Source: Sphingopyxis sp. OPL5
GTDB lineage: Bacteria; Pseudomonadota; Alphaproteobacteria; Sphingomonadales; Sphingomonadaceae
Assembly: GCF_003797775.2 (NCBI RefSeq)
Contig: NZ_CP060725.1
Location: forward strand, 3,652,001 to 3,716,000
Length of the DNA: 64,000 bases
Direction of reading: 5' to 3'
Numbering within the stretch: the stretch's first letter is position 1; every line of letters begins with the position of its first letter. Below, piece after piece: positions 48,099 to 64,000 of the stretch. A model generated the notes under the pieces. It worked only from the letters and a program-made list of their open reading frames with translations, searched no databases and was not told the DNA's origin. The position numbers and the translations under genes are program-made.

Positions 48099-48140
48099 GA
48101 CCCGCCTAAGCCAGCCTGTCGTTAGCGCGACAGACCATGC

Positions 48141-48233: not shown

Positions 48234-48743
48234 CCTACCCTTCCGCAGGGGTCCGTCTCAGTCCACAGAGATTGAGCTTTTCCCAGAAAACCAGAGCTTT
48301 TCGGATTCGCTCGTCCGCGACGTCTTTACGCGGCTCGGCGAGGCGACGGCGTGCGGCCTGAAGAGCCGCTTGGTGCGCGGTTTGCAGGAGGATTCTCGCG
48401 CCGCCAGCGTTTCGCCGCGATCGACTTGCCGAACAGCGCGCGGGCCATGCCCTGCCGGGTCGTCTCCTGCATGGGGCCTCGCGGAGATTGAGTCCGGTTA
48501 TGCGGTGCTCGACGAGGATTGGCAGGGTGCCTTGAAAGCGGACATTCGTATTTCACCGTCATCGACTATATCCGCCAAGCCGGATTTAACCCGGCGACAT
48601 GTCCTTGCTGGTACTCGCCCGGCGGGCTAGTGGAGCTGAGCGTAAGTGCTCGCGTTCATTTTGAATGCGCAATCAATTTTGCCGTTCGCACGTCAGGCAA
48701 CCATCGCGACACGATATTCGTCCGAGCGACAACAGGATGCGTA
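48234..48743. other. Gene-free stretch between tRNA-Ser and the lysR gene
   Basis: No intact gene is visible in these 510 nt. On the reverse strand, short protein-like pieces occur in different frames: RQGMARALFGKSIAAKRWRR (about 48401-48460) and, one base shifted, AALQAARRRLAEPRKDVADE (48290-48350). They read like a decayed gene with a frameshift, but no family is recognised. The stretch abuts a tRNA 3' end, a common integration target. Confidence 0.35.
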
Positions 48744-49640
48744 GTGAAACTTCGCCAGATTGAAATCTTCCACGCCGTTTATGTGACTGGCTCGGTCAGC
48801 GCCGCGGCGCGGGTGCTGAATATTTCGCAACCGTCGGTCACGAAAATCTTGCGTTATGCGGAGACCAGCCTCGGGCTGTCGTTATTCGAACGGACGAAGG
48901 GGCGCCTGGTCCCCACCGAGGATGCGCACGAGCTTTTCCTGGAGGTGGCGGAGGTCCAGAAGCGTGTCGACCAGCTCCGGCGGGCGAGCCGCAACCTGCG
49001 GTTCGGGCAAGGGCGGACACTGCGCGTTTCGGTGCTGCCGTCCCTCGGGCTCGGGGCGATACCGGACGCGGTGACAGCGTTTCTGGCCAAGCATGAAGGC
49101 GTGTCGCTGGAACTGCACACGGCGCATCACGACGACATGGTGCGCAAGCTTTACGAGCGGGAAACGGACCTGGTCATCAGCTATGACGTGCCGTCGACCG
49201 CCCCCGTCGGCTTCGACGTGCTGGGCACGGGAGAATTGGTCGCGGTCTATAAACCGGGCGCGATTCAATGCGACGCGCCGCGCATGCCGCTGAACGCTCT
49301 GGAGGGGCATCGGTTCATCACCACCGTCAAGAGCGGTCCGATGGGCAATCTGCTGTCCGAGGAACTCGCCCAGACGGGGGTGATGCTGAACGACGTCGTC
49401 TCGTCCCAGACCTTCTTTGTCGCGGCGGCGCTTGTCCGGTCCGGGGCGGGCGTATCGATCGTCGACAGTTTCACGGCGCAGGCGACCGCTACGCCCGACA
49501 TCGCCTTCAAGCCGCTCCAGCCGCCCATCCCGTTCAACGTTTATGCCATCTATCTGCAGAACCGGCCCCCGTCGAAATTGGCGACCGTTTTGCTGAAGCA
49601 TCTGAAAAGCGCCTTTCAAGCCTATAGAAAATTTCTATAG
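48744..49640 (+). CDS. LysR-family transcriptional regulator
   Basis: 298 residues from a GTG at 48744; the frame is open further upstream to 48519, but that part is not LysR-like and GTG begins the canonical KLRQIEIFHAVYVTGSV. The helix-turn-helix is SVSAAARVLNISQPSVTKIL. The C-terminal effector domain is complete (ETDLVISYDVPST, HRFITTVKSGPMG, LVRSGAGVSIVDSF). It heads an eleven-gene peptide-catabolic locus on the same strand. Its stop overlaps a palindrome with a LysR-type core that recurs before the TonB receptor unit, suggesting it controls both. Confidence 0.93.
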   Translation: MKLRQIEIFHAVYVTGSVSAAARVLNISQPSVTKILRYAETSLGLSLFERTKGRLVPTEDAHELFLEVAEVQKRVDQLRRASRNLRFGQGRTLRVSVLPSLGLGAIPDAVTAFLAKHEGVSLELHTAHHDDMVRKLYERETDLVISYDVPSTAPVGFDVLGTGELVAVYKPGAIQCDAPRMPLNALEGHRFITTVKSGPMGNLLSEELAQTGVMLNDVVSSQTFFVAAALVRSGAGVSIVDSFTAQATATPDIAFKPLQPPIPFNVYAIYLQNRPPSKLATVLLKHLKSAFQAYRKFL

Positions 49641-49641
49641 G
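49621..49641. promoter_or_regulatory. Palindromic operator, site 1 (end of lysR)
   Basis: Perfect 10-bp arms with a single central base; the right 18 bases are ATAGAAAATTTCTATAGG. It includes the LysR-type T-N11-A pattern, covers the last codons of lysR and lies 80 nt before the P1 peptidase start. Site 2 is at 53458-53478. Confidence 0.62.
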
Positions 49642-49719
49642 CCGCTGCCGCATAGATATTGTTCGGATCGTCCGTCGCGGATTAGGCAAGCAACATCTGT
49701 CAGTCAGCAAAGCGGATCA

Positions 49720-51033
49720 TTGCGCTTGTCCTTCGATATTTGTGGTATTTCCGGGGTCGTATCCAGCCAATGGTCCGGCCTGGGCAGGCTTGGCCATCGC
49801 TTGAGGCGAGGGCGGCGTGGGACGCTGGCCGCATTGCTGGCCGGTGCCGGGATTGCGATAGGCATGGGAGGAATCGGATCGTCCTCGGCGCAGGTCGTCG
49901 ACCAGCCGCGCGTCCACGCTCGCGACATTGGTATCGCGCCGGGAATATTTGCGCCCGGCCCTCTCAATTCCATCACCGACGTCGATGGCGTGCGAGTTGG
50001 CCAGGTGACACGTATCGAGGGCGCCGACGTCAGGACCGGCGTCACGGCGATCTTGCCGCACGGCGGCAATATTTTCCAGGACAAGGTGCCCGCGGGTATC
50101 GTCGTCGCCAATGGATTCGGCAAATTTGCGGGCGCGACGCAGATCGCCGAGCTGGGCGAGATCGAGACGCCGATCGTCCTGACCAACACCTTGAGCGTCG
50201 CGCCGGCGATCGATGGCATTCTCGACTGGACCCTGACGCGGCCCGGCAATGAACATGTCCGGTCGGTCAATGCGGTGGTGGGCGAAACCAACGACAGTGT
50301 GCTCAACAACATCCGCAAGCGGGTGATCGGCCGGTCTGACGTGATCGCGGCCATCGAGGCCGCGACCGGCGGCCCGGTTGCGGAAGGCAGCGTGGGCGCC
50401 GGCACGGGCACCATGGCCTTTGGCTGGAAAGGCGGTATCGGCACGAGTTCGCGCATGCTCCCACCGGCGCTGGGCGGCTATCGTGTCGGCGTGCTGGTGC
50501 AAACCAATTATGGCGGGACGCTGACGATGGATGGCGTCCCCGTCGGCAAAGCCTTGGGGCGCTATTATCTGCGCGAGCATAGCGAGCGGGCGTCGGCCGA
50601 CGGGTCGATCATTCTGGTCGTGGCGACCGATGCGCCGCTCAGCGACCGGAATCTGACCCGGCTCGCCCATCGTGCAATCGCAGGTCTGGCGCGGACCGGG
50701 GCAGCCTTTTCAAACGGGTCCGGCGACTATGCCATCGCTTTCTCGACCGCCGACGGAGTTCGCCGGACGGCAGCACGGCGAGCCGGCGTCGCGGCCTATC
50801 CCGAACTGGCCAATGACGAGATGTCGCCGCTGTTCGTGGCGGTGTCGGAAGCGGCCGAGGAAGCAATCTATAATTCGCTGCTGATGGCGACGACCATCGA
50901 CCGGCAGGCGACGGCCGAAGCCGGAGCGGCGAGGGGAGAGGCGCTCGACATCGCGGCGGTCAGGCAGGCGATCGCACGCTATCGACCGGCGGCGACACGG
51001 CGCCCGGCGCCGGCGAAGGGGAATGTCCGTTGA
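49720..51033 (+). CDS. P1-family aminopeptidase (DmpA/BapA-type)
   Basis: 437 residues if read from the TTG at 49720; no better start gives a leader, so the exact start is uncertain. An Arg-rich stretch and hydrophobic segment (LRRGRRGTLAALLAGAGIAI) look like a twin-arginine-type signal, ending near SSSAQ. The P1 fold is clear: GPLNSITDVDGVRVGQVT, GETNDSVLNNIRKR, and KGGIGTSSR, in which a serine would become the N-terminal nucleophile after self-cleavage. DmpA releases D- or L-residues and BapA cleaves beta-peptides. Likely periplasmic; the specificity here is unknown. Confidence 0.92.
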   Translation: MRLSFDICGISGVVSSQWSGLGRLGHRLRRGRRGTLAALLAGAGIAIGMGGIGSSSAQVVDQPRVHARDIGIAPGIFAPGPLNSITDVDGVRVGQVTRIEGADVRTGVTAILPHGGNIFQDKVPAGIVVANGFGKFAGATQIAELGEIETPIVLTNTLSVAPAIDGILDWTLTRPGNEHVRSVNAVVGETNDSVLNNIRKRVIGRSDVIAAIEAATGGPVAEGSVGAGTGTMAFGWKGGIGTSSRMLPPALGGYRVGVLVQTNYGGTLTMDGVPVGKALGRYYLREHSERASADGSIILVVATDAPLSDRNLTRLAHRAIAGLARTGAAFSNGSGDYAIAFSTADGVRRTAARRAGVAAYPELANDEMSPLFVAVSEAAEEAIYNSLLMATTIDRQATAEAGAARGEALDIAAVRQAIARYRPAATRRPAPAKGNVR

Positions 51034-52166
51034 GGCGGGTCGACATATTGGTGATCGGCGGCGGGATTGCCGGCGTGTCGGCGGCGGCGCGGTTCGCGCA
51101 GCGGTCGGAAACCATCTTGCTCGAACGCGAAAGCGCGCTTGGCTATCATTCGTCGGGGCGCAGCGCGACCTTCTATCATTTCGGCATCGGCGATGATGCG
51201 GTGCGCGGGCTGACGGCGGCCAGCCGCCACTTCTTCGCCAATCCGCCGGGTGGAGAGGAACTGCCGCCGCTGTGGCAGACGAAATCGGCCATGTTCTTCG
51301 CAACGGCCGAAACGATGGACCAACTGACGGCGCTCGAAACCGAAATGCGGCGCTTTTCTGACAATATCTCGCAAGTGGGACCGGCTGAGATGCAGGCGAT
51401 TGTCCCCGTGCTGAAGGTCGGGACGGGCGGCGCGGTTGCCGGACTGGTCGATACGGGTGGTCGCAAGCTGGACGCCGATCTGCTCCTCCAAGCCAATGCG
51501 CGCGCGCTGCGGGCGGCAGGCGGCGAGATACATTTCCACGCCGGGGTTACGGGTATCGCGCACGACGGGGCCGATTGGATCGTCGATACGGTGGAGGAGA
51601 GTTACGCAGCCCGGATCGTCGTCAACGCAGCGGGCGCCTGGGCGGATGAATTCGCGGCGATGGCAGGCGTCCGCCCGCTCGGATTGATCCCGCTCCGGCG
51701 GACTATCATCGGCTTTGATCCGCCACAGGGTCTCGATGTGTCGGACTGGCCGTTTCTCAAGACGGTCTTCGACGATGGCTTCTACATGTTGCCCGATGCC
51801 GGCCGGCTCCTGGCTTCTCCCATGGATGTCACGCCATCGCCGGCGTGCGATGCCCAGCCGGAAGATTATGAAACGGCGCTTGCCGCGTGGCGCGTCGAAG
51901 AGGCGACGACATTGTCGGTGGACCGGATCGCGCTGAAATGGGCCGGTCTGCGAAGCTTCGTGGCGGACAAGGTGCCCACCGCCGGGTTCGCGCCCGACGC
52001 GCCAGGGTTCTTCTGGCTCGCCGGGCAGGGCGGTTACGGGCTGCAGACGTCGCCCGCGATGGCGCTGGCCGCCGAAGCCCTGTTGTTCGAGCTTCCCTGG
52101 CCCGAACTGCTTCGCGAACATGGCGTCGAGCCGCGCCAGATCCGGCCCGAACGCTTGCGCATCTGA
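51030..52166 (+). CDS. FAD-dependent D-amino-acid dehydrogenase (DauA-like)
   Basis: 378 residues from a TTG that overlaps the peptidase stop (TTGA). The N-terminal dinucleotide fold is DILVIGGGIAGVSAAARFA. GYHSSGRSATFYHFG matches the active-site loop of D-arginine dehydrogenases (YHSTGRSA in that family). The C-terminal FWLAGQGGYGLQTSPAMA is the second FAD motif. It has no signal peptide, so it is cytosolic or membrane-associated. It would oxidise D-amino acids released from imported peptides to keto acids, passing electrons to a quinone or oxygen. Confidence 0.9.
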   Translation: MRRVDILVIGGGIAGVSAAARFAQRSETILLERESALGYHSSGRSATFYHFGIGDDAVRGLTAASRHFFANPPGGEELPPLWQTKSAMFFATAETMDQLTALETEMRRFSDNISQVGPAEMQAIVPVLKVGTGGAVAGLVDTGGRKLDADLLLQANARALRAAGGEIHFHAGVTGIAHDGADWIVDTVEESYAARIVVNAAGAWADEFAAMAGVRPLGLIPLRRTIIGFDPPQGLDVSDWPFLKTVFDDGFYMLPDAGRLLASPMDVTPSPACDAQPEDYETALAAWRVEEATTLSVDRIALKWAGLRSFVADKVPTAGFAPDAPGFFWLAGQGGYGLQTSPAMALAAEALLFELPWPELLREHGVEPRQIRPERLRI

Positions 52167-52219
52167 TGCCCATGGCCGGGAGATGGTTTTTGGGACGATC
52201 CTATCGGGAGTAATCTTGC

Positions 52220-53203
52220 ATGCGTTTCCTGACCCTGCTCGGCGCGCTCTGCGTCGCGACAACACCCTCCGCCTATGCGCAGGACAAATGGACGATCGTC
52301 ATTCATGGCGGGGCCGGGGAGATGGCCCGGGGCAAGACGTCGCCGGAGCAGGATCAAGCGCTTCGTGCCGGTCTGAATGCGGCGCTCGATGCGGGGGCCG
52401 GCGTGTTGGCCGCCGACGGCAGCGCGCTGGACGCCGTCGAAGCGGCGATCAAGGTGCTGGAGGATGATCCGCGCTTCAATGCGGGGCGCGGCGCCGTCTT
52501 TACCTGGGACGGGCGCAACGAACTCGACGCCGCGATCATGGACGGGCGCACCCGCGCGGCGGGTGCGGTGGCGGGTATCACGCGCACGCGCAATCCCATC
52601 AGCCTCGCGCGGGCGGTCATGGAAAAAAGCCCGCACGTCTTCCTTGGCGGTGAAGGAGCCGACCGTTTCTCGATCGAGCAGGGATTGCCGCAAGTCGATC
52701 CTTCCTGGTTCGCGACCCCCGAACGTCGCAAGCAGCTCGAACGGATGAAGGCCGACAAATTGAGCTGGTACGACGTCGACCTGAAATTCGGAACCGTCGG
52801 CGCCGTCGCGATCGATGCCGATGGCAATGTCGCGGCGGCGACGTCGACGGGCGGACGAACCGGAAAGCGCTGGGGACGCATCGGCGACGCTCCGGTGATC
52901 GGCGCGGGGACCTATGCCGACAACCGCGCTTGCGCGGTCTCCGCAACGGGGGCGGGCGAATATTTCATCCGCGTCGGCGCGGCGCACGAGATTTGCGCGC
53001 GTATCCGCATGAAGGGTGAGACGCCAAAGGCGGCGGCGGATGCCGTCATGGCCGAGATCGGGCAATTGGGCGGCACCGGCGGGGTGATCGTCACCGGACC
53101 CGGCGGAACGGCGGACTGGTCGTTCAACACGCCCGGCATGTCGCGCGGTAGCGCCAGCAGCACCGGCGAACGCAAGGTGGCCCTCTACGGCGACGAGGAC
53201 TGA
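52220..53203 (+). CDS. Isoaspartyl peptidase / type-III L-asparaginase, exported
   Basis: 327 residues with a signal peptide (LLGALCVATTPSAYAQ). It is an Ntn hydrolase: the nucleophile Thr begins the beta chain in KFGTVGAVAIDADGN, so it should self-cleave there. Substrate residues in IHGGAGEMARG, NAGRGAVFTWDG and GGTGGVIV are conserved. Plant-type asparaginases cleave beta-aspartyl dipeptides, which arise from damaged proteins and cyanophycin. Its periplasmic location differs from the usual cytosolic form. A hairpin terminator 3 nt after the stop ends the first transcription unit. Confidence 0.93.
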   Translation: MRFLTLLGALCVATTPSAYAQDKWTIVIHGGAGEMARGKTSPEQDQALRAGLNAALDAGAGVLAADGSALDAVEAAIKVLEDDPRFNAGRGAVFTWDGRNELDAAIMDGRTRAAGAVAGITRTRNPISLARAVMEKSPHVFLGGEGADRFSIEQGLPQVDPSWFATPERRKQLERMKADKLSWYDVDLKFGTVGAVAIDADGNVAAATSTGGRTGKRWGRIGDAPVIGAGTYADNRACAVSATGAGEYFIRVGAAHEICARIRMKGETPKAAADAVMAEIGQLGGTGGVIVTGPGGTADWSFNTPGMSRGSASSTGERKVALYGDED

Positions 53204-53205
53204 AC

Positions 53206-53235
53206 GCTTCCAGGCGCGGACAGCCGCCTGGAAGC
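53206..53235 (+). terminator. Hairpin closing the first peptide-catabolic unit
   Basis: A perfect 11-bp stem (53206-53216 with 53225-53235) with an 8-nt loop starts 3 nt after the isoaspartyl peptidase stop. No long T-run follows, so efficiency is uncertain. Confidence 0.55.
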
Positions 53236-53457
53236 CTGTGTCATCGCACGAAATAGCCGGCATTGCGCCAGGATATTTGTTGGCGGCGGAGCGTGGATAT
53301 GCTCCTGCCGACGGACGGCGTCGGCGACCTATTCCCCTCAGGCATATGCCGACGTGGTCAAGCGGCTGCCGATCATCTGTGCATGGCACCGGGCATTGCC
53401 GTCATTCCGCCAAATCGGGAGAGAAATCCTGGGTCGCTGCCGGCGTCTGGCTCAAAA

Positions 53458-53478
53458 TCCATAGAAAATTTCTATAGG
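53458..53478. promoter_or_regulatory. Palindromic operator, site 2 (before TonB receptor)
   Basis: Shares the 18-base ATAGAAAATTTCTATAGG with site 1 at 49621-49641. It lies 250 nt upstream of the receptor start. The rest of the 53236-53727 gap shows no gene. Confidence 0.62.
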
Positions 53479-53727
53479 TAGGGGAAGCCTTGATATTGGC
53501 CTTGTTTCCCTTCGCCGGTTCAACTGTCCTCCTCGGTCGGGCTGGTCTGCCTGATCGACCGAGGCTGCTTTATGCTGCGACGGCTGTCGGTCGGCGAATG
53601 CCCGCCGGACCCGCTGATACGCACCAAAAGCCGGAAGGAGAAGCGACGAGCGGCTTTGCGCCCCGGTCTTCTTCTTCCTGTTCAAGGAGGAACGCCACTT
53701 GTTGGTCGTGAAAAAAAGGGGGTCGAG

Positions 53728-56619
53728 ATGGTGAGTTTCAGGAAATCTTTTGCGGTCGCGTTGCTGACGATGGTGTCGAGTACCGCGATGGCGCAGGATC
53801 TGACGTCGGGCACAGAGGCCGAAGGTGAGGCCGTGGCCGACGGTGAAAGCATCGTCGTCACCGGCACGCGCATCAAGCAGGATGGTTTTTCGGCGACGGT
53901 GCCAATCAACATTTTGGGTGCGGAAGAACTGGAAGCATCGGGCAAGACCGATCTTGGCCAAATCCTTGCCGAAATGCCGGGCGTTAACCTCGTCGACACC
54001 ACCGTCGGGCAGCCGAACGGGACCATTCAGAACGCCGGCACCAGCACGGTCGCGTTGCGCGGCCTGTCGAGTTCGCGCACGCTGACGCTGATCAACGGAC
54101 GGCGCACGGTTGCCAATGCCGCGAACCGCAGCGTGGTCAGCCTGAACACCATTCCCGTCGATTTCGTCGAGCGCGTCGATGTCATCACCGGCGCCGCATC
54201 GGCGGTCTATGGATCGGACGCGATCGCGGGCGTCGTCAACGTCATCACTGAATCCAAGCTCGAAGGCCTGCGTCTGCGCGGTCGCATCGGGTCTGCACTG
54301 ACCGGCGGCGGCGGGGCTGAGGAGGCGATGGTTGCTGCCACTTTCGGCGCCAAATTCGCAGACGGCCGTGGCTATTTCGCGATCAGCGGCAGCTGGGACG
54401 ACGATGGCGGCCTGCTCGCGCGCGACCGCCTTGCCCGCGCGACCAAGAACTGGACTTTCGCTTCGGGCACCAACACGATCAGCGACCCCGCGCTGAGCAC
54501 CGATACGCCGGGCGGACGCTTTCGCGGCGGCGCCTTTTTCTATGACGACGCCGGCACGTTGCGCACGGGATTTGTGACCAATCGCGACGGCTATAACGAT
54601 CGCTTCGATGACACGCTGCGCCTGCCGCGCACCGTGATGGCGCTGGCCGGCAAAGCGAGTTTCGAAGTGTCGGAGGCGTTCGTCCCCTATGTCGAGGTGC
54701 AATTCTCCGACCTCGACACCTTCTACACCCGCGCGCCCTATGGCTATCGCGATTCGAGCACGGTGTTCCTTCGCGACGAGATCGGCGTTCCGCTTCCGGG
54801 CCTGCCGACCTTCGCGATCGGGCGCATCTCGCGCGACAATCCCTTTGTTCCGACCGAAATCCGCGCCGGCGCTCCGGCCAGCGGCATCGATTGGCGGCGG
54901 CGCTTCGACGAACTGGGCAATCGCGACACGATCAGCGATCGCGACACGCTGCGCGTCTGGGGCGGCGTCCGCGGCAAGCTGGGCGGCGACTGGACCTATG
55001 ACGCGACCTATTCCTATGGCACCTTCGACCAGGTCCAGACGCGACTGAACAATATCAACCTGCAGAATCTGAAATATGCACTCGATGCCGAGCGTCTGGC
55101 GAGCGGCGTGATCCAGTGTCGCGATGCCACCGCGCGCGCTGCCGGCTGCGTTCCGATCAACATCTTCGGCGTCGGGACGATCACGCCGGAGGCGGCGAAT
55201 TACATCCGCCATGATTCGACATTCTACACCAAGCTGCGTCAGGACGTGTTCCAGGCCTTTGCCACCGGTTCGATCTTCGAGCTTCCGGCGGGCAAGGTGC
55301 AGCTTGCGCTCGGCGGTGAATATCGCCGTGAAAAGGGCACGTCGGGCAGCGATGCGCAGACGCTTGCGGTCATCTCGAACGTTGCGGCGGTTCCGAGCTT
55401 CAGCGGCAGCTTCAACGTCAAGGAAGCCTTTGCCGAACTTTCGGTCCCGCTGCTCAGCGGCAAGCCGTTCTTCGAGGAACTGAAGGTCGATTTCGCGGGC
55501 CGCGTGTCCGACTATAGCCAGAAGAACGTCGGCACGGTGTACAGCTATCATGCAGGCGCCGACTGGATGCCCGTGGAAGGGCTGCGTTTCCGTACCCAAT
55601 ATGGCACGGCGCAGCGCGCGCCCAGCCTTCCCGAACTTTATTCGCCGCCGCGCGACGACACCGACACGGTGGTCGACATCTGTTCGGGCATCACGGCAAC
55701 GACCGCCGGCACGGTTGCCGGCAATTGCCGCCTGAACCCGGGCATCGCGGCGACGATCGCCTCGAACGGCGTGTTCACCCAGTCCTCCACCTCGATCCAG
55801 TCGCCCAATATGGGCAGCCTGGCTCTGCGTGAGGAAAAAGGCACGACCTTCACGCTGGGCACGGTGATCTCGCCGCGCGCGCTGCCGGGGCTCAACCTGT
55901 CGGTCGATTATTACAACATCAAGGTGACCAATGCGATCTCGGCGCTGGATAACGAGATTTTGCTGCGTCAGTGCTATTCGGACGCGACGAATTTCGCCGG
56001 CAACGAGTTCTGCCAGTCGGTGATCCGCGGGGCCGACGGCCAGATCCTGCAGATCAACCAGGTGCCGCAGAACCTCGATCGCATCTCGACGTCGGGCATC
56101 GATACGTCGTTCGCCTATCGGCTGCCGCTGGAAGGGGTCGGTGTCGCCGGCGACCTGCGTTTCGATTTCAACTGGACGCATGTGATCAAGAAGGAAACCC
56201 AGTATCAGGGGATCAACGGCACCGAAATTTCCAATACCAGGGGGCAGATTTCCTCGCCGACCGACGTTGTCCGCGCCCGGATCGGGTACACGAACAAGCT
56301 GTGGAACATCGACTGGCGCGTGCGTTACATCGGCCCGATGGTGTCGTCGAACGATCGTGTGGCGGCGGCCGAAGCGGCCGGGTTCGCCAATCCGCTATAC
56401 CTCTATTATGGCGCCTATTGGCGGCACGACATCGGGGCGAGCATCCGGCCCGAATTCGGTGGCGGCAAGTGGCGCCTGTCGGTTGGCATCACCAACCTGT
56501 TCGACAAGACCGGGCCGAATGTGCCCGAAGGTGCGACGCCCTTTGACGACAATGGCTATATCCTCGACTATGGTGTTGTCGGACGCTCGGGCTTCGCGTC
56601 GATCGAGGTGAAGTTCTGA
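53728..56619 (+). CDS. TonB-dependent receptor of the peptide-catabolic locus
   Basis: 963 residues from MVSFRKSFAVALLTMV; the upstream frame to 53572 lacks a signal and is rejected. The signal peptide ends STAMAQ. The plug begins ESIVVTGTRI and contains VDVITGAASAVYGSDAIAG. The long barrel ends in SGFASIEVKF. Large receptors of this type carry oligopeptides, glycans or metal chelates across the outer membrane. Its position before secreted peptidases suggests a peptide substrate. It overlaps the next gene by one base (TGATG). Confidence 0.96.
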   Translation: MVSFRKSFAVALLTMVSSTAMAQDLTSGTEAEGEAVADGESIVVTGTRIKQDGFSATVPINILGAEELEASGKTDLGQILAEMPGVNLVDTTVGQPNGTIQNAGTSTVALRGLSSSRTLTLINGRRTVANAANRSVVSLNTIPVDFVERVDVITGAASAVYGSDAIAGVVNVITESKLEGLRLRGRIGSALTGGGGAEEAMVAATFGAKFADGRGYFAISGSWDDDGGLLARDRLARATKNWTFASGTNTISDPALSTDTPGGRFRGGAFFYDDAGTLRTGFVTNRDGYNDRFDDTLRLPRTVMALAGKASFEVSEAFVPYVEVQFSDLDTFYTRAPYGYRDSSTVFLRDEIGVPLPGLPTFAIGRISRDNPFVPTEIRAGAPASGIDWRRRFDELGNRDTISDRDTLRVWGGVRGKLGGDWTYDATYSYGTFDQVQTRLNNINLQNLKYALDAERLASGVIQCRDATARAAGCVPINIFGVGTITPEAANYIRHDSTFYTKLRQDVFQAFATGSIFELPAGKVQLALGGEYRREKGTSGSDAQTLAVISNVAAVPSFSGSFNVKEAFAELSVPLLSGKPFFEELKVDFAGRVSDYSQKNVGTVYSYHAGADWMPVEGLRFRTQYGTAQRAPSLPELYSPPRDDTDTVVDICSGITATTAGTVAGNCRLNPGIAATIASNGVFTQSSTSIQSPNMGSLALREEKGTTFTLGTVISPRALPGLNLSVDYYNIKVTNAISALDNEILLRQCYSDATNFAGNEFCQSVIRGADGQILQINQVPQNLDRISTSGIDTSFAYRLPLEGVGVAGDLRFDFNWTHVIKKETQYQGINGTEISNTRGQISSPTDVVRARIGYTNKLWNIDWRVRYIGPMVSSNDRVAAAEAAGFANPLYLYYGAYWRHDIGASIRPEFGGGKWRLSVGITNLFDKTGPNVPEGATPFDDNGYILDYGVVGRSGFASIEVKF

Positions 56620-57560
56620 TGCGCCGGCGGAAGGCGTCGGCGCGAGCCATCGGTCTGGCGATGCTGGTCCTGGCCGTGGCGGGAGGGACCATCGGCTCCA
56701 CCGCCCTGGCCCGGGCGGCGGCCCCCGCCAAGGCGGCGAAGGACAAGGCGCCGGCCTTGCCGGACCTCAAACCCGGTGCGGGGAGCTTCCTTTTTTCCGG
56801 CTGGGCCGGAAAGCCGCTCCGCGTCCATTATTACCTGCCCGACAAGGTGACCGAGACCACGCGCATCCTGTTCGTCATCCATGGTGCCGGGCGCAATGCC
56901 GACGGTTACCGCGACGCGTGGATCCCCTACGCCAACGAGGGGCAGTATATCGTCCTGACTCCCGAATATTCGAAGGAGGATTTCCCGACCTCGCTAACCT
57001 ATAATGTCGGGCATATCGTCGACGAAGCCGGCAATCCGCGGCCGCGCGAACAATGGTCGTTCGCGTCGATCGAACCGATGTTCGATGCTGTTCGCCAGGC
57101 GACGGGCACCAAGGTGCCCCGATATGCGATCTATGGCCACTCGGCAGGGGGGCAGTTCGTGCATCGTTTCGTCGAACTGTGGCCCGACGCCCGCTACAGC
57201 CGGGCGGTCGCCGCCAACGCCGGCTGGTACACGATGCCCGATCTGGCGATCCAATATCCCTATGGTCTGAAGGGTGCACCGACCGACGCCGCCGGATTGA
57301 AAGCGACACTGGAAAAACCGTTGACGATCCTGCTCGGCACAGCGGACACCGATCCCAATCATCACCAGCTTTCGCGGACGCCTGAAGCGATGACGCAGGG
57401 CGTCCACCGGCTGGCGCGCGGCGAATTCTTCCATGCCTATGGCCGCAAGGTGGCGCATGAACTGGGCGCCAAATTCGCATGGAAGCTCGATTACGCGCCG
57501 AACATTGCACATAGCAATACGGGCATTAGCCAATACGCGCAGAAGCTGGTCTGGGAATAA
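56619..57560 (+). CDS. Exported alpha/beta hydrolase
   Basis: 313 residues, starting on the last base of the receptor stop. A signal peptide (LAMLVLAVAGGTIGSTALARA) is followed by an Ala/Lys-rich linker. The nucleophile elbow is YGHSAGGQFVHRF, and the catalytic His probably lies in IAHSNTGISQYA. Other blocks are FVIHGAGRNADGYRD and TILLGTADTDPNHH. It looks like a polyester or peptide-ester hydrolase related to PHB-depolymerase-like proteins. It belongs to the second unit of the locus. Confidence 0.86.
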   Translation: MRRRKASARAIGLAMLVLAVAGGTIGSTALARAAAPAKAAKDKAPALPDLKPGAGSFLFSGWAGKPLRVHYYLPDKVTETTRILFVIHGAGRNADGYRDAWIPYANEGQYIVLTPEYSKEDFPTSLTYNVGHIVDEAGNPRPREQWSFASIEPMFDAVRQATGTKVPRYAIYGHSAGGQFVHRFVELWPDARYSRAVAANAGWYTMPDLAIQYPYGLKGAPTDAAGLKATLEKPLTILLGTADTDPNHHQLSRTPEAMTQGVHRLARGEFFHAYGRKVAHELGAKFAWKLDYAPNIAHSNTGISQYAQKLVWE

Positions 57561-57722
57561 CCCTACCCAACAGGGTGGTCGAGTACAGGTGGTCGTGGCG
57601 TCCCTATTGCGGGCCGGTCGCGTCCGGCCGCCTGCTGCCCGCACAATGCGGTTGCGTCCGAACCTTGCGCCGACCCGCATCCGGTAAAGCGGTAAACTTC
57701 ACTCCCGTCATGGAGAATCGAC

Positions 57723-59027
57723 GTGGCAAAGCGCCTGACGCTTTACATCTTTATCGGCCTCGCGCTCGGGTTGCTGGTCGGCTGGGCGATCAACGCCGCA
57801 ATGACGGACGGCACCGCGGCGACGCAGGAGCGGCTTGTGACGATCGCCGGCCATTTCTCTGTCGTCAGCACGTTGTTCCTGCGGTTGATCAAGATGATCA
57901 TCGCACCGCTGGTGTTCGCCACTCTGGTGTCGGGGATCATCCATATGGCCGATACCTCGGCGCTCGGGCGGATCGGGGGGCGGGCGCTGGCTTGGTTCAT
58001 CGGCGCGAGTTTCATTTCGCTCCTGCTCGGCCTGCTGCTTGTCAACATCTTCAAGCCGGGCGTCGGCCTCGAACTCGATTTGCCTACCGCGACCGGATCG
58101 ACCAGCCTCGCCACCGCTGATTTCAGCATCGCCAAATTCGTCACCCATCTGGTGCCGACATCGATGTTCGACGCGATGGCGAACAACGAGATATTGCAGA
58201 TCGTCGTCCTGTCGCTGTTCGTCGGCGTCGGTATTACCAGCCTTGGCAGTGGCGGCCAACGGCTTGCGGGGCTGGTCGAGGAAATGGTCGCGGTGATGCT
58301 CAAGATCACCGAATATGTCATGCGCGTCGCTCCGATCGCCGTCTTCGCGGCGGTTGCCGCCGCGGTGATCGAGCGCGGCGTCGGCATCGTCGTGACCTTC
58401 GGTTACTTCATTGGTGTCTTCTATCTGGGGCTGGCCCTCCTGTGGGTTGTCCTTCTTTCCGCCGCATGGATATTGCTGCGCGCAAACCCGATCGTGCTGC
58501 TGCGCAACATTCGTGAGCCAATTCTGCTCGCCTTTTCGACCGCTTCGTCGGAAGCCGCCTTTCCGCGCACGCTCGAGGCCCTCGACAGGGGCGGCGTGCC
58601 GCGGCGGATTTCCAGCTTCGTGTTGCCGCTCGGCTATTCGTTCAATCTCGACGGGTCGATGATGTACATGGCCTTTGCAATCATGTTCATCGCCCAGGCC
58701 TATGGCGTCGAGATGGATTTGTGGCAGCAGTTCACGGTGCTGCTGATCCTGATGGTGACATCAAAGGGTGTGGCGGGTGTGCCGCGCGCCAGTCTGGTCG
58801 TCGTGGCGGCGACATTGTCGTTCGTGAACCTGCCCGAAGCCGGATTGTTGCTCATCCTCGCGATCGATCATTTTCTCGACATGGGCCGCACCGCGACCAA
58901 TGTCGTCGGCAACGCGGTGGCCTGCACCGCGGTCGCGCGCTGGGAGGGCGTCCTCGGCGTTGAAGAGGAACCCGAACCGGCCGCATTGGCGCTTGAAATC
59001 GAGACCACCCCGGTCTCCAAAGTCTGA
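57723..59027 (+). CDS. Dicarboxylate/amino-acid:cation symporter (DAACS)
   Basis: 434 residues from a GTG at 57723, with GGAGAATC before it. Eight-span transporters of the GltP/DctA type: conserved LRLIKMIIAPLVFATLVSGI, the serine-rich AFSTASSEAAFPRTLEAL hairpin, FVLPLGYSFNLDGSMMYM, and the substrate-binding IDHFLDMGRTATNVVGNA. The final segment normally coordinates the substrate carboxylate through an Arg; here the RTATNVVGN pattern fits acidic or neutral amino acids. It probably imports amino acids released in the periplasm by this locus. Confidence 0.94.
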   Translation: MAKRLTLYIFIGLALGLLVGWAINAAMTDGTAATQERLVTIAGHFSVVSTLFLRLIKMIIAPLVFATLVSGIIHMADTSALGRIGGRALAWFIGASFISLLLGLLLVNIFKPGVGLELDLPTATGSTSLATADFSIAKFVTHLVPTSMFDAMANNEILQIVVLSLFVGVGITSLGSGGQRLAGLVEEMVAVMLKITEYVMRVAPIAVFAAVAAAVIERGVGIVVTFGYFIGVFYLGLALLWVVLLSAAWILLRANPIVLLRNIREPILLAFSTASSEAAFPRTLEALDRGGVPRRISSFVLPLGYSFNLDGSMMYMAFAIMFIAQAYGVEMDLWQQFTVLLILMVTSKGVAGVPRASLVVVAATLSFVNLPEAGLLLILAIDHFLDMGRTATNVVGNAVACTAVARWEGVLGVEEEPEPAALALEIETTPVSKV

Positions 59028-59060
59028 ATGGCTTTTCTCCAATTCGCGAAAGGAATTTTT

Positions 59061-60338
59061 ATGCGTAACATGGTGTTGCTGACCCTGGGCGCGGCCCTGA
59101 TGGCAGCCTCCCCCGCGCAGGCCGCCCCCAAGGCGAAGCCCGAGGCCGTGCTGAAGACCAAGGGGTATGAATCAGCGATCAAGATCCTCGACCGCGACCA
59201 TGACCGGATGATCGAAGAGATCATCAAGCTTACGGAAATTCCGGCGCCGCCGTTCAAGGAGGCCGCGCGCGCCGCCGCCTATGCCGAAATGCTGAAGGAC
59301 GCGGGACTCCAGGACGTCGAGATCGACGAAGAGGGCAATGCGATGGGCGTCTATCGCGGCACCGGTCCCGCCGGCGGCCCGGCGGTGATGATCGCCGCGC
59401 ATCTCGACACCGTCTTTCCCGAGGGCACGCCGATCAAGGTTCGCCGCGACGGGACGCGCCTCTATGCCCCCGGCATCGGCGACGACACGCGCAGCCTGGC
59501 CGTGCTGCTCGCCTATGCGCGCGCGATGAAGGAAAGCGGGATCAAGGTGAAGCAGGACATCGTCTTCGTCGGCAATGTCGGCGAGGAAGGGCCGGGCGAC
59601 CTGCGCGGCGTCCGCTACCTGCTGACCAAGGGCAAGTATAAGGACCGGGTGAAGGCCTTCTTCTCGATGGACGGGACCGATGCATCGCGGGTCGTCAACG
59701 GCGGGGTCGGATCGCGGCGCTATCGTATCACCTACAAGGGGCCGGGCGGGCACAGCTATGGCGCGTTCGGACTGGTCAACCCGATGGCGGCGATGAGCCA
59801 GACCGTGGTCGACTTCTACAAGATCCCCGTTCCGGCCAAGCCCAAGACCACCTATGCCGCCAGCGTCACCGGCGGCGGCACCTCGGTCAATTCGATCCCG
59901 AACGAAGTGTTCATGGAATTCGATATGCGGTCGGAAAACCCCGCCGAACTCGCCAAGCTCGAACAGGCGTTCCTTGCCGTCGTCAAGAACAGCGTCGACG
60001 GCGAGAATGCAGCTCGGTCGGTCAAGGAAGGACCGGTTACCGCCGACGTCAAGCTGATCGGCGACCGTCCGGCGGGCGAGACCGCCGCGACGCAGCAGAT
60101 CGTCCGCAATGCGGATGCGATCATCCGCGCCAAGGGGCTGGAACCGCGACCCTCCTTCTCCTCGACCGACTCGAACATTCCGATGAGCCTCGGCATCCCG
60201 GCGGTGACGATCGGGTCGGGCGGACAGGGCGGCCGTGCGCACTCGCTCGATGAATGGATCGACGTCGAAAAGACCAAGAGCCTGCACGGCGCCACCGTCG
60301 GTCTCGGCATCCTGCTCGCCACCGCAGGCGTCCAATAA
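59061..60338 (+). CDS. Exported M20-family metallopeptidase
   Basis: 425 residues from MRNMVLLTLGAALMAASPAQA; GAAAGGA lies upstream. M20 zinc ligands and catalytic residues are visible: MIAAHLDTVFPEG (His, Asp), GIGDDTRSLAVLLAYA (bridging Asp), GNVGEEGPGD (Glu pair) and the late SGGQGGRAHSLDEWID (His). The dimerisation insert contains GGHSYGAFGL. Such enzymes cleave di/tripeptides or N-acyl amino acids. The signal peptide places it in the periplasm, downstream of receptor-mediated uptake. The stop overlaps the CapA gene start. Confidence 0.92.
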   Translation: MRNMVLLTLGAALMAASPAQAAPKAKPEAVLKTKGYESAIKILDRDHDRMIEEIIKLTEIPAPPFKEAARAAAYAEMLKDAGLQDVEIDEEGNAMGVYRGTGPAGGPAVMIAAHLDTVFPEGTPIKVRRDGTRLYAPGIGDDTRSLAVLLAYARAMKESGIKVKQDIVFVGNVGEEGPGDLRGVRYLLTKGKYKDRVKAFFSMDGTDASRVVNGGVGSRRYRITYKGPGGHSYGAFGLVNPMAAMSQTVVDFYKIPVPAKPKTTYAASVTGGGTSVNSIPNEVFMEFDMRSENPAELAKLEQAFLAVVKNSVDGENAARSVKEGPVTADVKLIGDRPAGETAATQQIVRNADAIIRAKGLEPRPSFSSTDSNIPMSLGIPAVTIGSGGQGGRAHSLDEWIDVEKTKSLHGATVGLGILLATAGVQ

Positions 60339-61768
60339 TGGGCACCCGGCCGCGCTACCTCCGCGCCTCGCGGATCGCCGGGACGGTCGCGGCCGGGTTC
60401 GCTCTCGCGCTCGCGCTGACGCTGTCGGCGCAGGAAAAGCTCGAAACGGCGCCGGTGCCGACAGTGCCGATCGCCGACGGCTTCACCATCGCGGGTGCGG
60501 GAGACCTCATCTACCTGCGCCCGATGCTGCCGACGATCGAAGCGCGGAGCCCCGATCTGCTGCGCCTGCTGCGCGGTGCCGACGTCACCTTCGGTAATTT
60601 CGAGACGAGCGTCATCGACCTGACCGATACCAAGGCGGTGCCGCAGGCGGAATCGGGCGGCACCTGGATGCACGCCGATCCCGGCGTTCCCGCCGATGTG
60701 CGCGCCATGGGCTTCACCATCGTCAGCCATGCCAACAATCACGCCACCGACTGGGGCGTCGAGGGGATGGACGAGACTGGGCGCCATCTGACCGCGGCGA
60801 AGCTGGTCTGGGGCGGAACTGGCAAGACGATGGCGGCAGCGCGCGCACCGCGCTACCTCGACACTGCCAAGGGCCGTGTCGCCATCGTCTCGGCCACTTC
60901 GACCTTCACGCCGATGTCGGTCGCCGCCAATCCGGTCGGCAGCGTTCCCGGCAGACCCGGGGTCAACAGCCTGCGCACGCGCCGCTCGACGGTCGTGTCG
61001 GCCGGCGAACTGGAGATGCTGGCGGGCCTCGCCGCGCGCTCCGAACTGCGCAGTGACGGGCGCAAGGACGACGGCGTCATGTTGATGGGCAGCCACTACA
61101 AGGCCGGGCCGGTGCGTGAAGGAAAGCTGGCCTTCAGCTATCGCGTCAACCAGCGCGACGTCGACGAGAATTTTCTGTCGGTCCGGCAGGCGAAGCAGAA
61201 CGGCAATTTCGTCATCTTCTCGGTCCACAATCACGAACCTTCGAACGCTTCGCAGGAACCGGCGGATTTCGCGATCCAGCTTGCGCATGATGTGATCGAC
61301 GCGGGCGCCGACGTCTATATGGGCCACGGCCCGCATCAGCTTCGCGGCATCGAAATCTACAAGGGGCGGCCCATCTTCTATTCGCTCGGCAATTTTGCGA
61401 TGATGAACAATTCGCTCGACGAAATTCCCGACGACATGTTCCAGCAATATGGCGTCGCGCCCGGCGCGGCGACGGTTCCCGAATTGTTGCAAGCCCGCAA
61501 CACGCGATCTTTCTCGGACCCTAATCTGTATGAATCGGTGATCGCGACCAGCCGCTACGTCGGCGGGCAGGTCGTCGAAATCAGGCTTTACCCGATCGAT
61601 CTGGGCGTCGACGTGCGCGGCGCGGGCAAGGGCGTTCCTGCAATGGCATCGCCCGCGCGGGCACAGGCGATCCTCGAGCGGCTGCAGCGGCTGTCGGCGC
61701 CGTTCGGAACGACGATCAGCATCGAAAAAAATGTCGGAATCATCCGGCCGGGCGAGGGGCGCCGATAG
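60338..61768 (+). CDS. CapA-family protein (poly-gamma-glutamate-type metallophosphoesterase fold)
   Basis: 476 residues, ATG on the last base of the M20 stop. An N-terminal hydrophobic segment (IAGTVAAGFALALALTLSA) serves as signal or anchor. The CapA/PGA_cap fold is recognisable from GAGDLIYLRP, the NFETSVID metal-binding block, VSHANNHATDWG and VYMGHGPHQLRGIEIYKG. CapA is named for poly-gamma-glutamate capsule export or synthesis, but no capBC genes are present. In a degradative locus it may hydrolyse or recognise a gamma-linked or other polymer. Confidence 0.9.
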   Translation: MGTRPRYLRASRIAGTVAAGFALALALTLSAQEKLETAPVPTVPIADGFTIAGAGDLIYLRPMLPTIEARSPDLLRLLRGADVTFGNFETSVIDLTDTKAVPQAESGGTWMHADPGVPADVRAMGFTIVSHANNHATDWGVEGMDETGRHLTAAKLVWGGTGKTMAAARAPRYLDTAKGRVAIVSATSTFTPMSVAANPVGSVPGRPGVNSLRTRRSTVVSAGELEMLAGLAARSELRSDGRKDDGVMLMGSHYKAGPVREGKLAFSYRVNQRDVDENFLSVRQAKQNGNFVIFSVHNHEPSNASQEPADFAIQLAHDVIDAGADVYMGHGPHQLRGIEIYKGRPIFYSLGNFAMMNNSLDEIPDDMFQQYGVAPGAATVPELLQARNTRSFSDPNLYESVIATSRYVGGQVVEIRLYPIDLGVDVRGAGKGVPAMASPARAQAILERLQRLSAPFGTTISIEKNVGIIRPGEGRR

Positions 61769-61802
61769 CCATCGACGGCGACACATTCAGGTGCAGGATA
61801 TC

Positions 61803-62933
61803 ATGACACTTCAGGACTTGCAGACACCCTGCCTCCTTCTCGACGAAGCGAAGCTGCGGCGCAATGTTGCCGGGATGCAGGACCATCTCGCGCGGCTGGG
61901 GGTGGCCTTCCGTCCGCATCTGAAGACCGCCAAATCGCGCGACGTCGCGCGGGTCGCGATGACGTCATCGACGGGACCCGCGATGGTCTCGACGCTGCGT
62001 GAGGCCGAATATTTCGCCGAAGGCGGCGTGACGGACATGATCTATGGCGTCGGGATCGTGCCGGCCAAGCTTGGGCGTGTCGCGGCGATCCGCGGCAGGG
62101 GAGTGGATCTGGCGGTCATTCTGGACAGCATCGACCAGGCGGAGGCTGTCGTCCGCCATGCGCGCGCCAGCGGAGACCGGATTCCCGCGCTGATCGAGAT
62201 CGACGGCGACGGCCACCGATCGGGCGTTGCGCCCGGCGACGCCGCGACGCTCGTCGAAATCGCGCGCGCGCTGGCGGATGGCGCCGAATTGCGCGGCGTC
62301 CTCATCCATGCGGGCGGCAGCTATGCCCTCGATGACCCCGATACGCTCGCGGCCGCGGCGGAAGCCGAGCGCTTCGCGGCGGTTTCCGCCGCCGATATCT
62401 TGCGCGCTGTCGGCCTGCCTTGCCCGGTGGTCAGTGTCGGCTCGACGCCGACCGCGCGTTTCGCCCGCGATCTCGCTGGCGTGACCGAAGTGCGGGCCGG
62501 CGTGTTCATGTTCGGCGATCTTTATCAGGCCGGCGTCGGCTCGGTCGGCATCGACGACATCGCTTTGTCGGTGCTCTGCAGCGTGATCGGACATCAACCT
62601 GCGAAGGGCCGGATTCTTGTCGATGCTGGTTGGATGGCGATGTCGCGCGACCGCGGGACGTCAGGCCAGGCTATCGACCAGGGCTATGGTCTGGTGTGCG
62701 ACTTCGCCGGGCGCGTCTTTGACGACCTGATCATGGTCGAGGCCAATCAGGAGCATGGCGTCATCGCCCTGCGTCCGGGATCGACGGCCGTATTACCCGA
62801 CCTTCCGGTCGGTGCGCAGCTCCGAATCCTGCCGAACCATGCATGCGCGACCGGGGCGCAATATGATCGCTATCATGTGCTGGACGGCGACGGTCAGTTG
62901 ACCGCGATCTGGCCCCGGATCAACGGCTGGTAG
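61803..62933 (+). CDS. DSD1-family D-hydroxyamino-acid dehydratase/aldolase
   Basis: 376 residues. An alanine-racemase-like N-domain holds the PLP lysine in FRPHLKTAKS. The C-terminal NHACATG has the His-x-Cys zinc pair seen in eukaryotic-type D-serine dehydratases, rather than the His-x-Asp of D-threonine aldolases, so dehydratase activity on D-Ser or D-threo-hydroxyaspartate is favoured. The family also includes beta-hydroxyaspartate aldolase. It is cytosolic. The dehydratase of the threonine type follows after 9 nt. Confidence 0.9.
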   Translation: MTLQDLQTPCLLLDEAKLRRNVAGMQDHLARLGVAFRPHLKTAKSRDVARVAMTSSTGPAMVSTLREAEYFAEGGVTDMIYGVGIVPAKLGRVAAIRGRGVDLAVILDSIDQAEAVVRHARASGDRIPALIEIDGDGHRSGVAPGDAATLVEIARALADGAELRGVLIHAGGSYALDDPDTLAAAAEAERFAAVSAADILRAVGLPCPVVSVGSTPTARFARDLAGVTEVRAGVFMFGDLYQAGVGSVGIDDIALSVLCSVIGHQPAKGRILVDAGWMAMSRDRGTSGQAIDQGYGLVCDFAGRVFDDLIMVEANQEHGVIALRPGSTAVLPDLPVGAQLRILPNHACATGAQYDRYHVLDGDGQLTAIWPRINGW

Positions 62934-62942
62934 AGACAGGAT

Positions 62943-63941
62943 ATGACCGATCGCCAGCTTGCCATTTCCGCCGCAGATGTCCGCGCGGCGGCTCTGCTGA
63001 TCGCGGGCAAGGTGGTGCGCACGCCCTTGCTGGAATTTCCGTCGCTGAACGAGCGCGCCGGACGCCGTGTCCTCGTGAAGTTCGAGGGCGCGCAATATAC
63101 CGGCTCATTCAAGTTTCGCGGGGCCTATAATCGTTTGGCGCGTTTGACCGGCGAAGAACGAGCGGCCGGCGTTGTCGCCTGGTCTTCGGGCAACCATGCC
63201 CAGGGCGTGGCTGCGGCCGCCCGGCTTCTGGGAATCGGGGCCTCGATCGTGATGCCGTCGGATGCTCCGGCCATCAAGGTCAGGAACACCAGGGCGTTCG
63301 GGGCCGAGATCATCTTCTATGATCGTACCACCGAATCCCGGGAGGACATCGCCACCGCGCTCTCGATCGAACGCGGAGCCGTTCTGGTGCCGTCTTACGA
63401 CGATCCGTTCGTCATGGCGGGGCAGGGCACGATCGGCCTCGAACTGGTCGAGCAGTCGCGGCAGGCCGGAGCGGAACTGTCACAGGTGCTCGTCGCCTGT
63501 GGTGGCGGCGGGCTGGTGGCGGGAATCGCCACGGCCATGAAGGACGCGCTGCCCGATCTCCAGATGTTCAGTGTCGAGCCTTGCGCCTTCGACGACACGG
63601 CACGATCGCTCGACAGCGGGCGCCGCGAAACGGTGGCGACGGGAGCTGCATCGATCTGCGACGCATTGCTCGCTCCGACGCCGGGCTGCCTGACATTCCC
63701 GGTCAATCGCCGCCTGCTTTCTGGCGGGCTCAGCGTGAGCGATGACGAGGTGAAGGCGACGATGCGCTACGGCTTCGAGGAATTGAAGCTCGTCATGGAA
63801 CCAGGCGGGGCGGTTGCGCTTGCGGCACTGCTGCACGGCCGCGCGCCGATGTCCGACTTGCCGGTTGCGGTCGTTGTGTCGGGATCCAATGTCGATCCCG
63901 CGCTTTATGCCCATATCCTGGATGAGGGGGCCGGGGCATGA
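62943..63941 (+). CDS. Threonine/serine-dehydratase-family PLP enzyme
   Basis: 332 residues. Fold-type-II PLP enzyme: Lys in GSFKFRGAYN, SSGNHAQGVA, and the phosphate loop CGGGGLVAG. It lacks the C-terminal ACT regulatory domain of biosynthetic threonine deaminase, so it is catabolic. Members act on L-Thr/Ser or on L-threo-3-hydroxyaspartate. Paired with the DSD1-type gene, it could clear both enantiomers of a beta-hydroxy amino acid. Its stop overlaps a further ATG (ATGA), so the operon may continue beyond the window. Confidence 0.92.
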   Translation: MTDRQLAISAADVRAAALLIAGKVVRTPLLEFPSLNERAGRRVLVKFEGAQYTGSFKFRGAYNRLARLTGEERAAGVVAWSSGNHAQGVAAAARLLGIGASIVMPSDAPAIKVRNTRAFGAEIIFYDRTTESREDIATALSIERGAVLVPSYDDPFVMAGQGTIGLELVEQSRQAGAELSQVLVACGGGGLVAGIATAMKDALPDLQMFSVEPCAFDDTARSLDSGRRETVATGAASICDALLAPTPGCLTFPVNRRLLSGGLSVSDDEVKATMRYGFEELKLVMEPGGAVALAALLHGRAPMSDLPVAVVVSGSNVDPALYAHILDEGAGA

Positions 63942-64000
63942 ACTCCATGGCGCCCCCCCGTGGATGCAGCTTGTCTTGGTAAGCAGCGGCGGGAGATCTG
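63942..64000 (+). other. Start of the next reading frame, cut by the window
   Basis: An ATG at 63938 overlapping the dehydratase stop opens only 14 codons. A second ATG at 63964 (MQLVLVSSGGRS) is open to the edge. A run of seven C lies between them. Too short to call. Confidence 0.2.

Follow-up and report, generated by a model that had tools for sequence, protein, structure and literature searches.

Eleven consecutive genes at positions 48744–63941 of a 64,000-nucleotide (nt) stretch of the Sphingopyxis sp. OPL5 genome (NZ_CP060725.1, positions 3,652,001 to 3,716,000; the whole stretch is referred to here as the window) probably form a cluster for the utilisation of beta-aspartyl polymers or oligomers, a reading to which we give a probability of roughly 0.78. 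The locus is read as a system for beta-aspartyl chains because two of its genes are closely related to those for the poly(aspartic acid) hydrolases PahZ1 and PahZ2. In other genomes, PahZ1 is conserved together with genes for import and uptake, as in a poly(aspartate) utilisation cluster. An earlier note on this DNA, made from the sequence alone, had proposed a system that takes up and breaks down D-, beta- or iso-linked peptides. That direction is supported and is narrowed to beta-aspartyl chains by the kinship with PahZ1 and PahZ2, and nothing was found here in support of cyanophycin or siderophores, which the note had named among its candidate substrates.

The two poly(aspartic acid) hydrolases

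The gene content, gene order, identities and conservation are reported here, and the chemistry of PahZ1 is published for a relative. The PahZ1 protein of the window matched PDB entry 6ve6, named poly(aspartic acid) hydrolase-1, with 591 bits and 252 of 275 aligned residues identical. The PahZ2 protein matched 7ljh, named poly(aspartic acid) hydrolase, with 827 bits (371/407 identical, tag residues counted in). PahZ1 also matched 9o7u (200 bits). We take 6ve6 and 7ljh to be proteins of Sphingomonas sp. KT-1 and 9o7u to be a protein of Pedobacter sp. KP-2. Ser175, the nucleophile in the motif GHSAG, and His298 of PahZ1 are invariant across 14 sequences; no Pfam family was found for PahZ1 at E 0.001. 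The earlier labels for these two products, alpha/beta hydrolase and M20 peptidase, missed this specific identity, with poly(aspartic acid) hydrolases ~91% identical to both. In stating that it knew of no named system with this gene set, the note likewise overlooked the known PahZ1 and PahZ2 enzymes.

The available excerpts of PMC4456602, whose reference list cites both KT-1 enzymes, concern the Pedobacter sp. KP-2 PahZ1. Thermal poly(aspartate) served as a substrate in the study of this enzyme, which in assays on beta-tri(Asp) stereoisomers cut beta- but not alpha-tri(Asp). According to the same excerpts, L-aspartate (L-Asp) is required at subsite 1, D-Asp is accepted elsewhere, an L-D junction is preferred and three Asp units must fill the subsites; the enzyme leaves beta-dimers uncut and can release free D-Asp. 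PahZ1 of the window is predicted, by analogy, to be an endo-cleaver of beta-Asp bonds. The uncut dimers and the D-Asp released by PahZ1 would call for dipeptidases and for breakdown of D-Asp, roles that other genes of the cluster could fill.

The locus is like the KT-1 PahZ1/PahZ2 and KP-2 PahZ1 degradation systems in that it has both hydrolases, ~91% identical to the solved enzymes, but differs in adding nine further genes. No description of a gene cluster around PahZ1/PahZ2 was found in the open literature searched. The hydrolase core is already known biochemically and, as far as that literature was searched, the wider locus with its conserved partners has not been described as a system.

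Organisation of the locus

The features of the locus are given below in order.

48744..49640, + strand: LysR-type regulator, 298 amino acids from GTG (PF00126/PF03466; kept in two close relatives)
49720..51033, + strand: P1/S58 (BapA/DmpA-type) aminopeptidase (PF03576 369.5 bits; PDB matches)
51030..52166, + strand: DauA-like flavin adenine dinucleotide D-amino-acid dehydrogenase (PF01266; DauA 3nyc 281 bits)
52220..53203, + strand: isoaspartyl peptidase, Asparaginase_2 family (PF01112 356 bits; 2zak 249 bits)
53204..53727, no strand: gap of 524 nt that separates the 5' from the 3' gene group and may contain a second promoter (open reading frame coordinates)
53728..56619, + strand: TonB-dependent receptor (PF00593, PF07715)
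56619..57560, + strand: PahZ1, poly(aspartic acid) hydrolase-1 (252/275 identical to 6ve6)
57723..59027, + strand: DAACS (SDF) dicarboxylate/amino acid symporter (PF00375 389 bits)
59061..60338 (start 59028 or 59061), + strand: PahZ2, M20 poly(aspartic acid) hydrolase (371/407 identical to 7ljh)
60338..61768, + strand: CapA/PGA_cap calcineurin-like protein (PF09587; 8gq9 205 bits)
61803..62933, + strand: DSD1-type pyridoxal phosphate enzyme (3wqc 373 bits; PF14031)
62943..63941, + strand: PALP enzyme (NF005454 315 bits; PF00291)

All eleven open reading frames (ORFs) noted earlier were recovered on the + strand at 48744–63941 in the ORF listing, and profile searches upheld the family labels (LysR, S58/P1, DAO/DauA, Asparaginase_2, TonB receptor, SDF, M20, PGA_cap, DSD1-type and PALP). 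The spacing, described as mostly overlapping or less than 200 nt, holds for nine of the ten junctions, the 524-nt gap being the exception. Four of the ten junctions overlap or are separated by less than 10 nt (P1/DauA, 4 nt overlap; TonB/PahZ1, 1 nt; PahZ2/CapA, 1 nt; DSD1/PALP, 9 nt gap). Five measure 33–162 nt, with DAACS/PahZ2 falling to 0 if PahZ2 starts at 59028; start codons are uncertain for both P1 and PahZ2. By eye only, signal-like N-termini were seen in P1, the isoaspartyl peptidase, PahZ2 and the CapA-like protein, and none in the DauA-like protein.

Conservation of genes around PahZ1

At E 1e-30, 29 of the order's 296 genomes, own genome included, had a PahZ1 relative. In named genomes at least 532 stretches code for a relative, and the 80 best of these were retained. 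Among the matches listed, relatives at 40–57% identity came from Verrucomicrobia/Opitutae, Planctomycetota, Gemmatimonadetes, Acidobacteria, Gammaproteobacteria including Woeseiaceae, and others; those of Opitutae and Gammaproteobacteria have TonB receptor or peptidase neighbours. From 115 PahZ1 loci, six duplicates and the close relatives L067 and L073 were removed, leaving 107 for enrichment counts at a counting distance of 10 kb; neighbours can go unnoticed in some of these loci, which span less than 20 kb. The 51 control loci, all from one family, were anchored on DSD1 (31 of 38 rows fetched), DauA (10 of 27) or P1 (10 of 19), and an anchor's own loci were excluded when that gene was counted.

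A TonB receptor was found near PahZ1 in 54/107 loci compared to 2/51 controls (one-sided Fisher p 6e-10). DAACS transporters (32/107 versus 2/51; p 6e-5) and PahZ2 (10/107 versus 0/51; p 0.018) were also enriched by this test.

Several results weigh against the assignment of the whole cluster to beta-aspartyl chains. The isoaspartyl peptidase (8/107 versus 1/51; p 0.15) and DSD1 (6/107 versus 0/20; p 0.35) were not significantly enriched by simple frequency. Outside the genus, no association with PahZ1 was seen for P1 (1/107 versus 1/41), DauA (0/107 versus 0/41), CapA (1/107 versus 1/51), LysR (3/107 versus 1/51) or PALP (0/107 versus 1/51). The controls come from one family, whereas the PahZ1 loci span phyla, and the control locus L234 itself carries PahZ1; it is the one of 31 family DSD1 neighbourhoods that does. 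Within the genus, genome G302 has P1-DauA-isoaspartyl peptidase and G167 has P1-DauA only, both without a PahZ1 match, and this gene group may serve something else.

Position is the better evidence for the isoaspartyl peptidase and DSD1. On the same strand and within 2.5 kb of PahZ1, the isoaspartyl peptidase was found in 7/107 loci and DSD1 in 4/107. The peptidase-adjacent loci fall into two phyla: L108, L113, L137 and L140 (Opitutae/Opitutaceae/Opitutales, Verrucomicrobiota), together with L121 (Emcibacter, Alphaproteobacteria) and the two gammaproteobacterial loci L127 (Woeseiaceae) and L132 (Exilibacterium). The DSD1-adjacent loci, L120 and L127 (Woeseiaceae metagenome-assembled genomes, MAGs), L132 and L136 (Parasphingopyxis), belong to two classes of Pseudomonadota only. 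In L127 (6641–13076), four successive + strand ORFs encode a TonB receptor, PahZ1, an isoaspartyl peptidase (4 nt overlap) and DSD1. The same order was found by tblastn in the Exilibacterium MAG (L132), where the PahZ1 ORF is displaced by an overlapping ORF in the ORF listing. As base rates, the isoaspartyl peptidase occurs in 35/80 genus genomes (E 1e-40) and DSD1 in 35/298 family genomes (E 1e-60).

DSD1 was dropped as a specific marker of PahZ1, 30 of the 31 fetched family neighbourhoods being without PahZ1. The earlier note had suggested a search for P1, DauA, isoaspartyl peptidase and DSD1 together across Sphingomonadales; the 51 family neighbourhoods showed no recurrence of the four as a set. 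Partial pairs were P1-DauA in L282, P1-isoaspartyl peptidase in L287 and DauA-CapA in L275. In L287 (genome G547), P1 (68%) and the isoaspartyl peptidase (66%) lie within ~3 kb of each other on opposite strands, with no PahZ1 match. The fuller gene set was seen in the genus only. More widespread is a set of PahZ1, TonB receptor, DAACS and PahZ2, which the isoaspartyl peptidase and DSD1 join in some lineages.

Other recurrent neighbours among 109 PahZ1 loci, named from one representative each, were a sigma-54 response regulator (16), a sensor kinase (16) and an M14-type carboxypeptidase (17; for example L089 8445–9710), which may be another trimming enzyme. At least two PahZ1-like genes lie within ~7 kb in L099, L114, L140 and L143. 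In genome G180 (C1 547273–574819), a DSD1 relative lies ~26 kb from a PahZ1 relative, beyond the counting distance.

Accompanying peptidases, transporter and cytosolic enzymes

The P1 protein passed the Pfam Peptidase_S58 cut-off (369.5 versus 23.9 bits). It belongs to the P1/S58 family, as do the BapA/DmpA beta-peptidyl and D-aminopeptidases, but scores higher with 2drh, a hypothetical D-aminopeptidase (279 bits), than with the beta-peptidyl aminopeptidase 3n2w (175 bits); 5tzb (202 bits) and the aminopeptidase 1b65 (178 bits) lie between. A beta- or D-peptide specificity is putative. The isoaspartyl peptidase, a full-length protein, passed the Asparaginase_2 cut-off (356 versus 27 bits) and fell below that of the equivalog NF007589 (274 versus 567 bits). 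Solved beta chains align from its residue 192, with Thr at the N-terminal position.

The best models for the DAACS protein were DctA and GltP, with scores below their cut-offs. The flavoenzyme scored 281 bits with the D-arginine dehydrogenase DauA (3nyc) in the sequence search; it is predicted to use D-Asp. The DSD1-type protein matched D-threo-3-hydroxyaspartate dehydratase 3wqc best (373 bits), followed by 3llx (function not named, 340 bits), D-serine dehydratase 3anu (198 bits) and D-3-hydroxyaspartate aldolase 6qkb (102 bits). The first of these, as nearest solved homologue, suggests the putative activity. The PALP protein fell below the cut-off of NF005454, threo-3-hydroxy-L-aspartate ammonia-lyase (315 versus 452 bits), which was still the best of 38 models. 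Unlike the enzymes of the beta-hydroxyaspartate cycle, the DSD1 protein is far under the BhcC cut-off (131 versus 690) and the PALP protein under the BhcB cut-off (214 versus 550). Oxidation of D-Asp and both 3-hydroxyaspartate eliminations yield oxaloacetate. By this chemistry, the cytosolic DauA-, DSD1- and PALP-type enzymes would converge on one metabolite.

The CapA/MslH-like protein

The CapA-like protein is homologous to 8gq9 (205 bits; query 50–463 versus 4–427, 414 residues), whose database name is poly-gamma-glutamate synthesis protein and which we infer, from an NCBIfam match and PMC10406935, to be the lasso peptide epimerase MslH. Excerpts of PMC10406935 list the MslH active site as Asp11, Glu44, Asn87, His88, Asp91, His259, His261 and His295. 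CapA-like residues D56, E89, N134, H135, D138, H297, H299 and H333 (numbered from the ATG at 60338) lie at consistent offsets to these. The protein is like MslH in being a calcineurin-like homologue with all eight active-site residues matched, as read from offsets. It differs in scoring far below the family cut-off (249 versus 700 bits for the MslH epimerase equivalog NF038314), so it is only a distant relative of this peptide epimerase. The same excerpts report counterparts of most of the active-site residues in the phosphodiesterase YmdB, and the residue pattern is for this reason no proof of epimerase activity.

A CapA-anchored set comprised 10 rows, of which 9 neighbourhoods were fetched, own genome excluded. 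Within ~10 kb of these CapA relatives of the family, counted without a control, there was a TonB receptor in 6/9, a PahZ2 relative in 2/9, DAACS in 2/9 and DauA in 1/9. L198 and L200 have PahZ2 relatives (53–62%) nearby and no PahZ1 match; this type may be a second kind of oligo-aspartate locus.

Distribution and sites within the genus

Three of the 80 genus genomes (own, G338 and G342) have a PahZ1 at 87–100% identity, and 11/80 have any match at E 1e-60. The cluster in its 9–11-gene form occurs in these three and occupies a different site in each. In the stretches fetched, G338 has nine genes (LysR to CapA), G342 has ten (plus DSD1), and the PALP enzyme is found solely in the window. A DauA relative at ≥82% is present in five of the 80 (own, G338, G342, G302 and G167). 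Given the shorter gene groups of G302 and G167, the 524-nt gap coincides with the border between two gene groups of differing distribution. A large protein collection lists six more DauA relatives at 91–98% besides the window's own, with the neighbourhood viewed for G338 only, and metagenomes may contain additional copies of the cluster. The P1-DauA pair of G167 (L311 10736–18051) adjoins genes that read as a DctBD-like two-component system, a DAACS symporter and a TonB receptor, a setting of the kind in which PahZ1 is found elsewhere.

Homology to the relatives starts just before LysR (window 48732 for G338, 48722 for G342) and ends at 61770 (G338) or 62933 (G342). A tRNA-Ser (GCT) lies at 48141–48233, ~500 nt upstream of the cluster. 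Each of the four relatives tested carries the upstream flank, from the cytochrome c1 gene to this tRNA, at another place in its genome, and the long match breaks at 48234–48247, directly past the tRNA, as at an island border. The downstream flank is likewise found at 88% elsewhere in the genomes of G167, G338 and G342; in G167 it lies ~14 kb from P1-DauA on the same contig. These displaced flanks indicate that the cluster is an accessory block at differing sites. We regard a tRNA-Ser that ARAGORN called within the P1 region of L315 as a false positive. In G338, a second PahZ2-like M20 gene (48%; L154 5802–7046) lies ~7 kb past the end of the cluster.

Proposed pathway and alternative explanations

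In the proposed pathway, oligomers would cross the outer membrane via the TonB receptor and their internal beta-Asp bonds would be cut by periplasmic PahZ1. The fragments would be trimmed by PahZ2, the isoaspartyl peptidase and P1, the last perhaps acting on beta- or D- N-termini, and the CapA/MslH-like protein could invert D/L centres that block PahZ1. Asp-like monomers would then enter through the DAACS symporter. In the cytosol, DauA may oxidise D-Asp and the DSD1- and PALP-type enzymes may deaminate D- and L-3-hydroxyaspartate, all leading to oxaloacetate, with LysR as the likely regulator. The arrangement resembles polysaccharide utilisation loci, which combine TonB import, periplasmic depolymerisation, inner-membrane uptake and clustered catabolism with a regulator. 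It differs from them in its predicted substrate, a beta-polyamide, and in that none of its eleven genes encodes a SusD partner.

Succinimide chemistry produces a mixture of D- and L-Asp in alpha and beta linkage. The isoaspartyl peptidase, P1 (a relative of D- and beta-aminopeptidases) and DauA would suit such mixed D/beta peptides. The locus might accordingly recycle aged, succinimide-damaged protein, with poly(aspartate) merely a laboratory substrate, and the L-D junction favoured by Pedobacter PahZ1 (excerpts of PMC4456602) fits this as well. However, the same excerpts require three Asp units in the PahZ1 subsites, which isolated isoaspartate sites would not supply, and recycling leaves the two enzymes nearest to 3-hydroxyaspartate dehydratases without a role. 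We consider it unlikely.

The presence of these two enzymes, and the fact that the TonB receptor and DAACS are the commonest PahZ1 neighbours, would also suit the scavenging of hydroxyaspartate-containing peptides (e.g. siderophores), dicarboxylates or ordinary L-peptides by PahZ1-type enzymes of broader specificity. This is quite improbable in view of the ~91% identity to poly(aspartic acid) hydrolases, the isoaspartyl peptidase adjoining PahZ1 in two phyla and the family searches, in which none of the eleven genes (0/11) was one for siderophore biosynthesis. A recent origin of the cluster, directed at thermal poly(aspartate) as an industrial xenobiotic, would agree with the substrate on which PahZ1 was studied (excerpts of PMC4456602) and with the patchiness of the fuller cluster (3/80 genus genomes, each at its own site), but is very improbable for a family whose members at 40–57% identity across phyla mark it as old, although the eleven-gene form itself may be recent.

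Among the clues to the substrate of a beta-aspartyl utilisation cluster, the most interesting is the pair of hydroxyaspartate-type enzymes, one of them found again next to PahZ1 in further Alpha- and Gammaproteobacteria. A broader proposal, which we put forward as speculative and rather doubtful in its entirety, is that PahZ1-type loci of several phyla serve a natural beta-linked Asp polymer or oligomer containing, in Pseudomonadota at least, D-Asp and 3-hydroxyaspartate. The run of TonB receptor, PahZ1, isoaspartyl peptidase and DSD1 would then be the minimal pathway, and the Sphingopyxis CapA/MslH-like enzyme would epimerise blocking residues in the periplasm. Poly(aspartic acid) hydrolases have so far been studied with synthetic polymer, and the conserved setting supplies them with partners for import, uptake and catabolism. 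It predicts D-Asp and 3-hydroxyaspartate as products and opens the question of the natural substrate to tests with hydroxyaspartate peptides and beta-oligo(Asp) of defined structure. It also makes the CapA/MslH-like protein a candidate for an accessory epimerase acting on a stereochemically mixed polymer.

Phylogeny of DSD1 and the isoaspartyl peptidase

In a DSD1 tree of 39 rows, one of them partial (L120), PahZ1-adjacent members are spread over three or more distinct positions. L127, L132, L136 and L234 (an identical copy of L136) form one clade; the window groups with L067, joined with weaker support by L120; and L047 lies among relatives without nearby PahZ1. The DSD1 of L121 is on a long branch and its placement is unsure. 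This pattern would suit repeated recruitment of DSD1 to PahZ1 loci, as judged against comparison rows without nearby PahZ1 that all come from one family. The isoaspartyl peptidase tree, whose Opitutae and Gammaproteobacteria rows all come from loci with PahZ1 nearby, has three groups: Opitutae; Emcibacter with Woeseiaceae and Exilibacterium; and Sphingopyxis.

Edges of the cluster

The window lies within a 4.68 Mb genome of one contig. A promoter consensus scan gave 0 sigma-70-like sites, including in 53204–53727, and 10 terminator-like sites compared to 11.6 expected, which is uninformative. At the Rfam gathering threshold, the tRNA at 48141 was the only hit in 48000–64000. The cluster seems to end at 63941: the next ORFs (L153) run on the other strand and, read by eye, appear to have no relation to it (aldehyde dehydrogenase, alcohol dehydrogenase, AraC, P450 and a TonB receptor). 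Upstream of the cluster, a gene of the EipA (envelope integrity) family lies on the minus strand at window positions 47126–47890.

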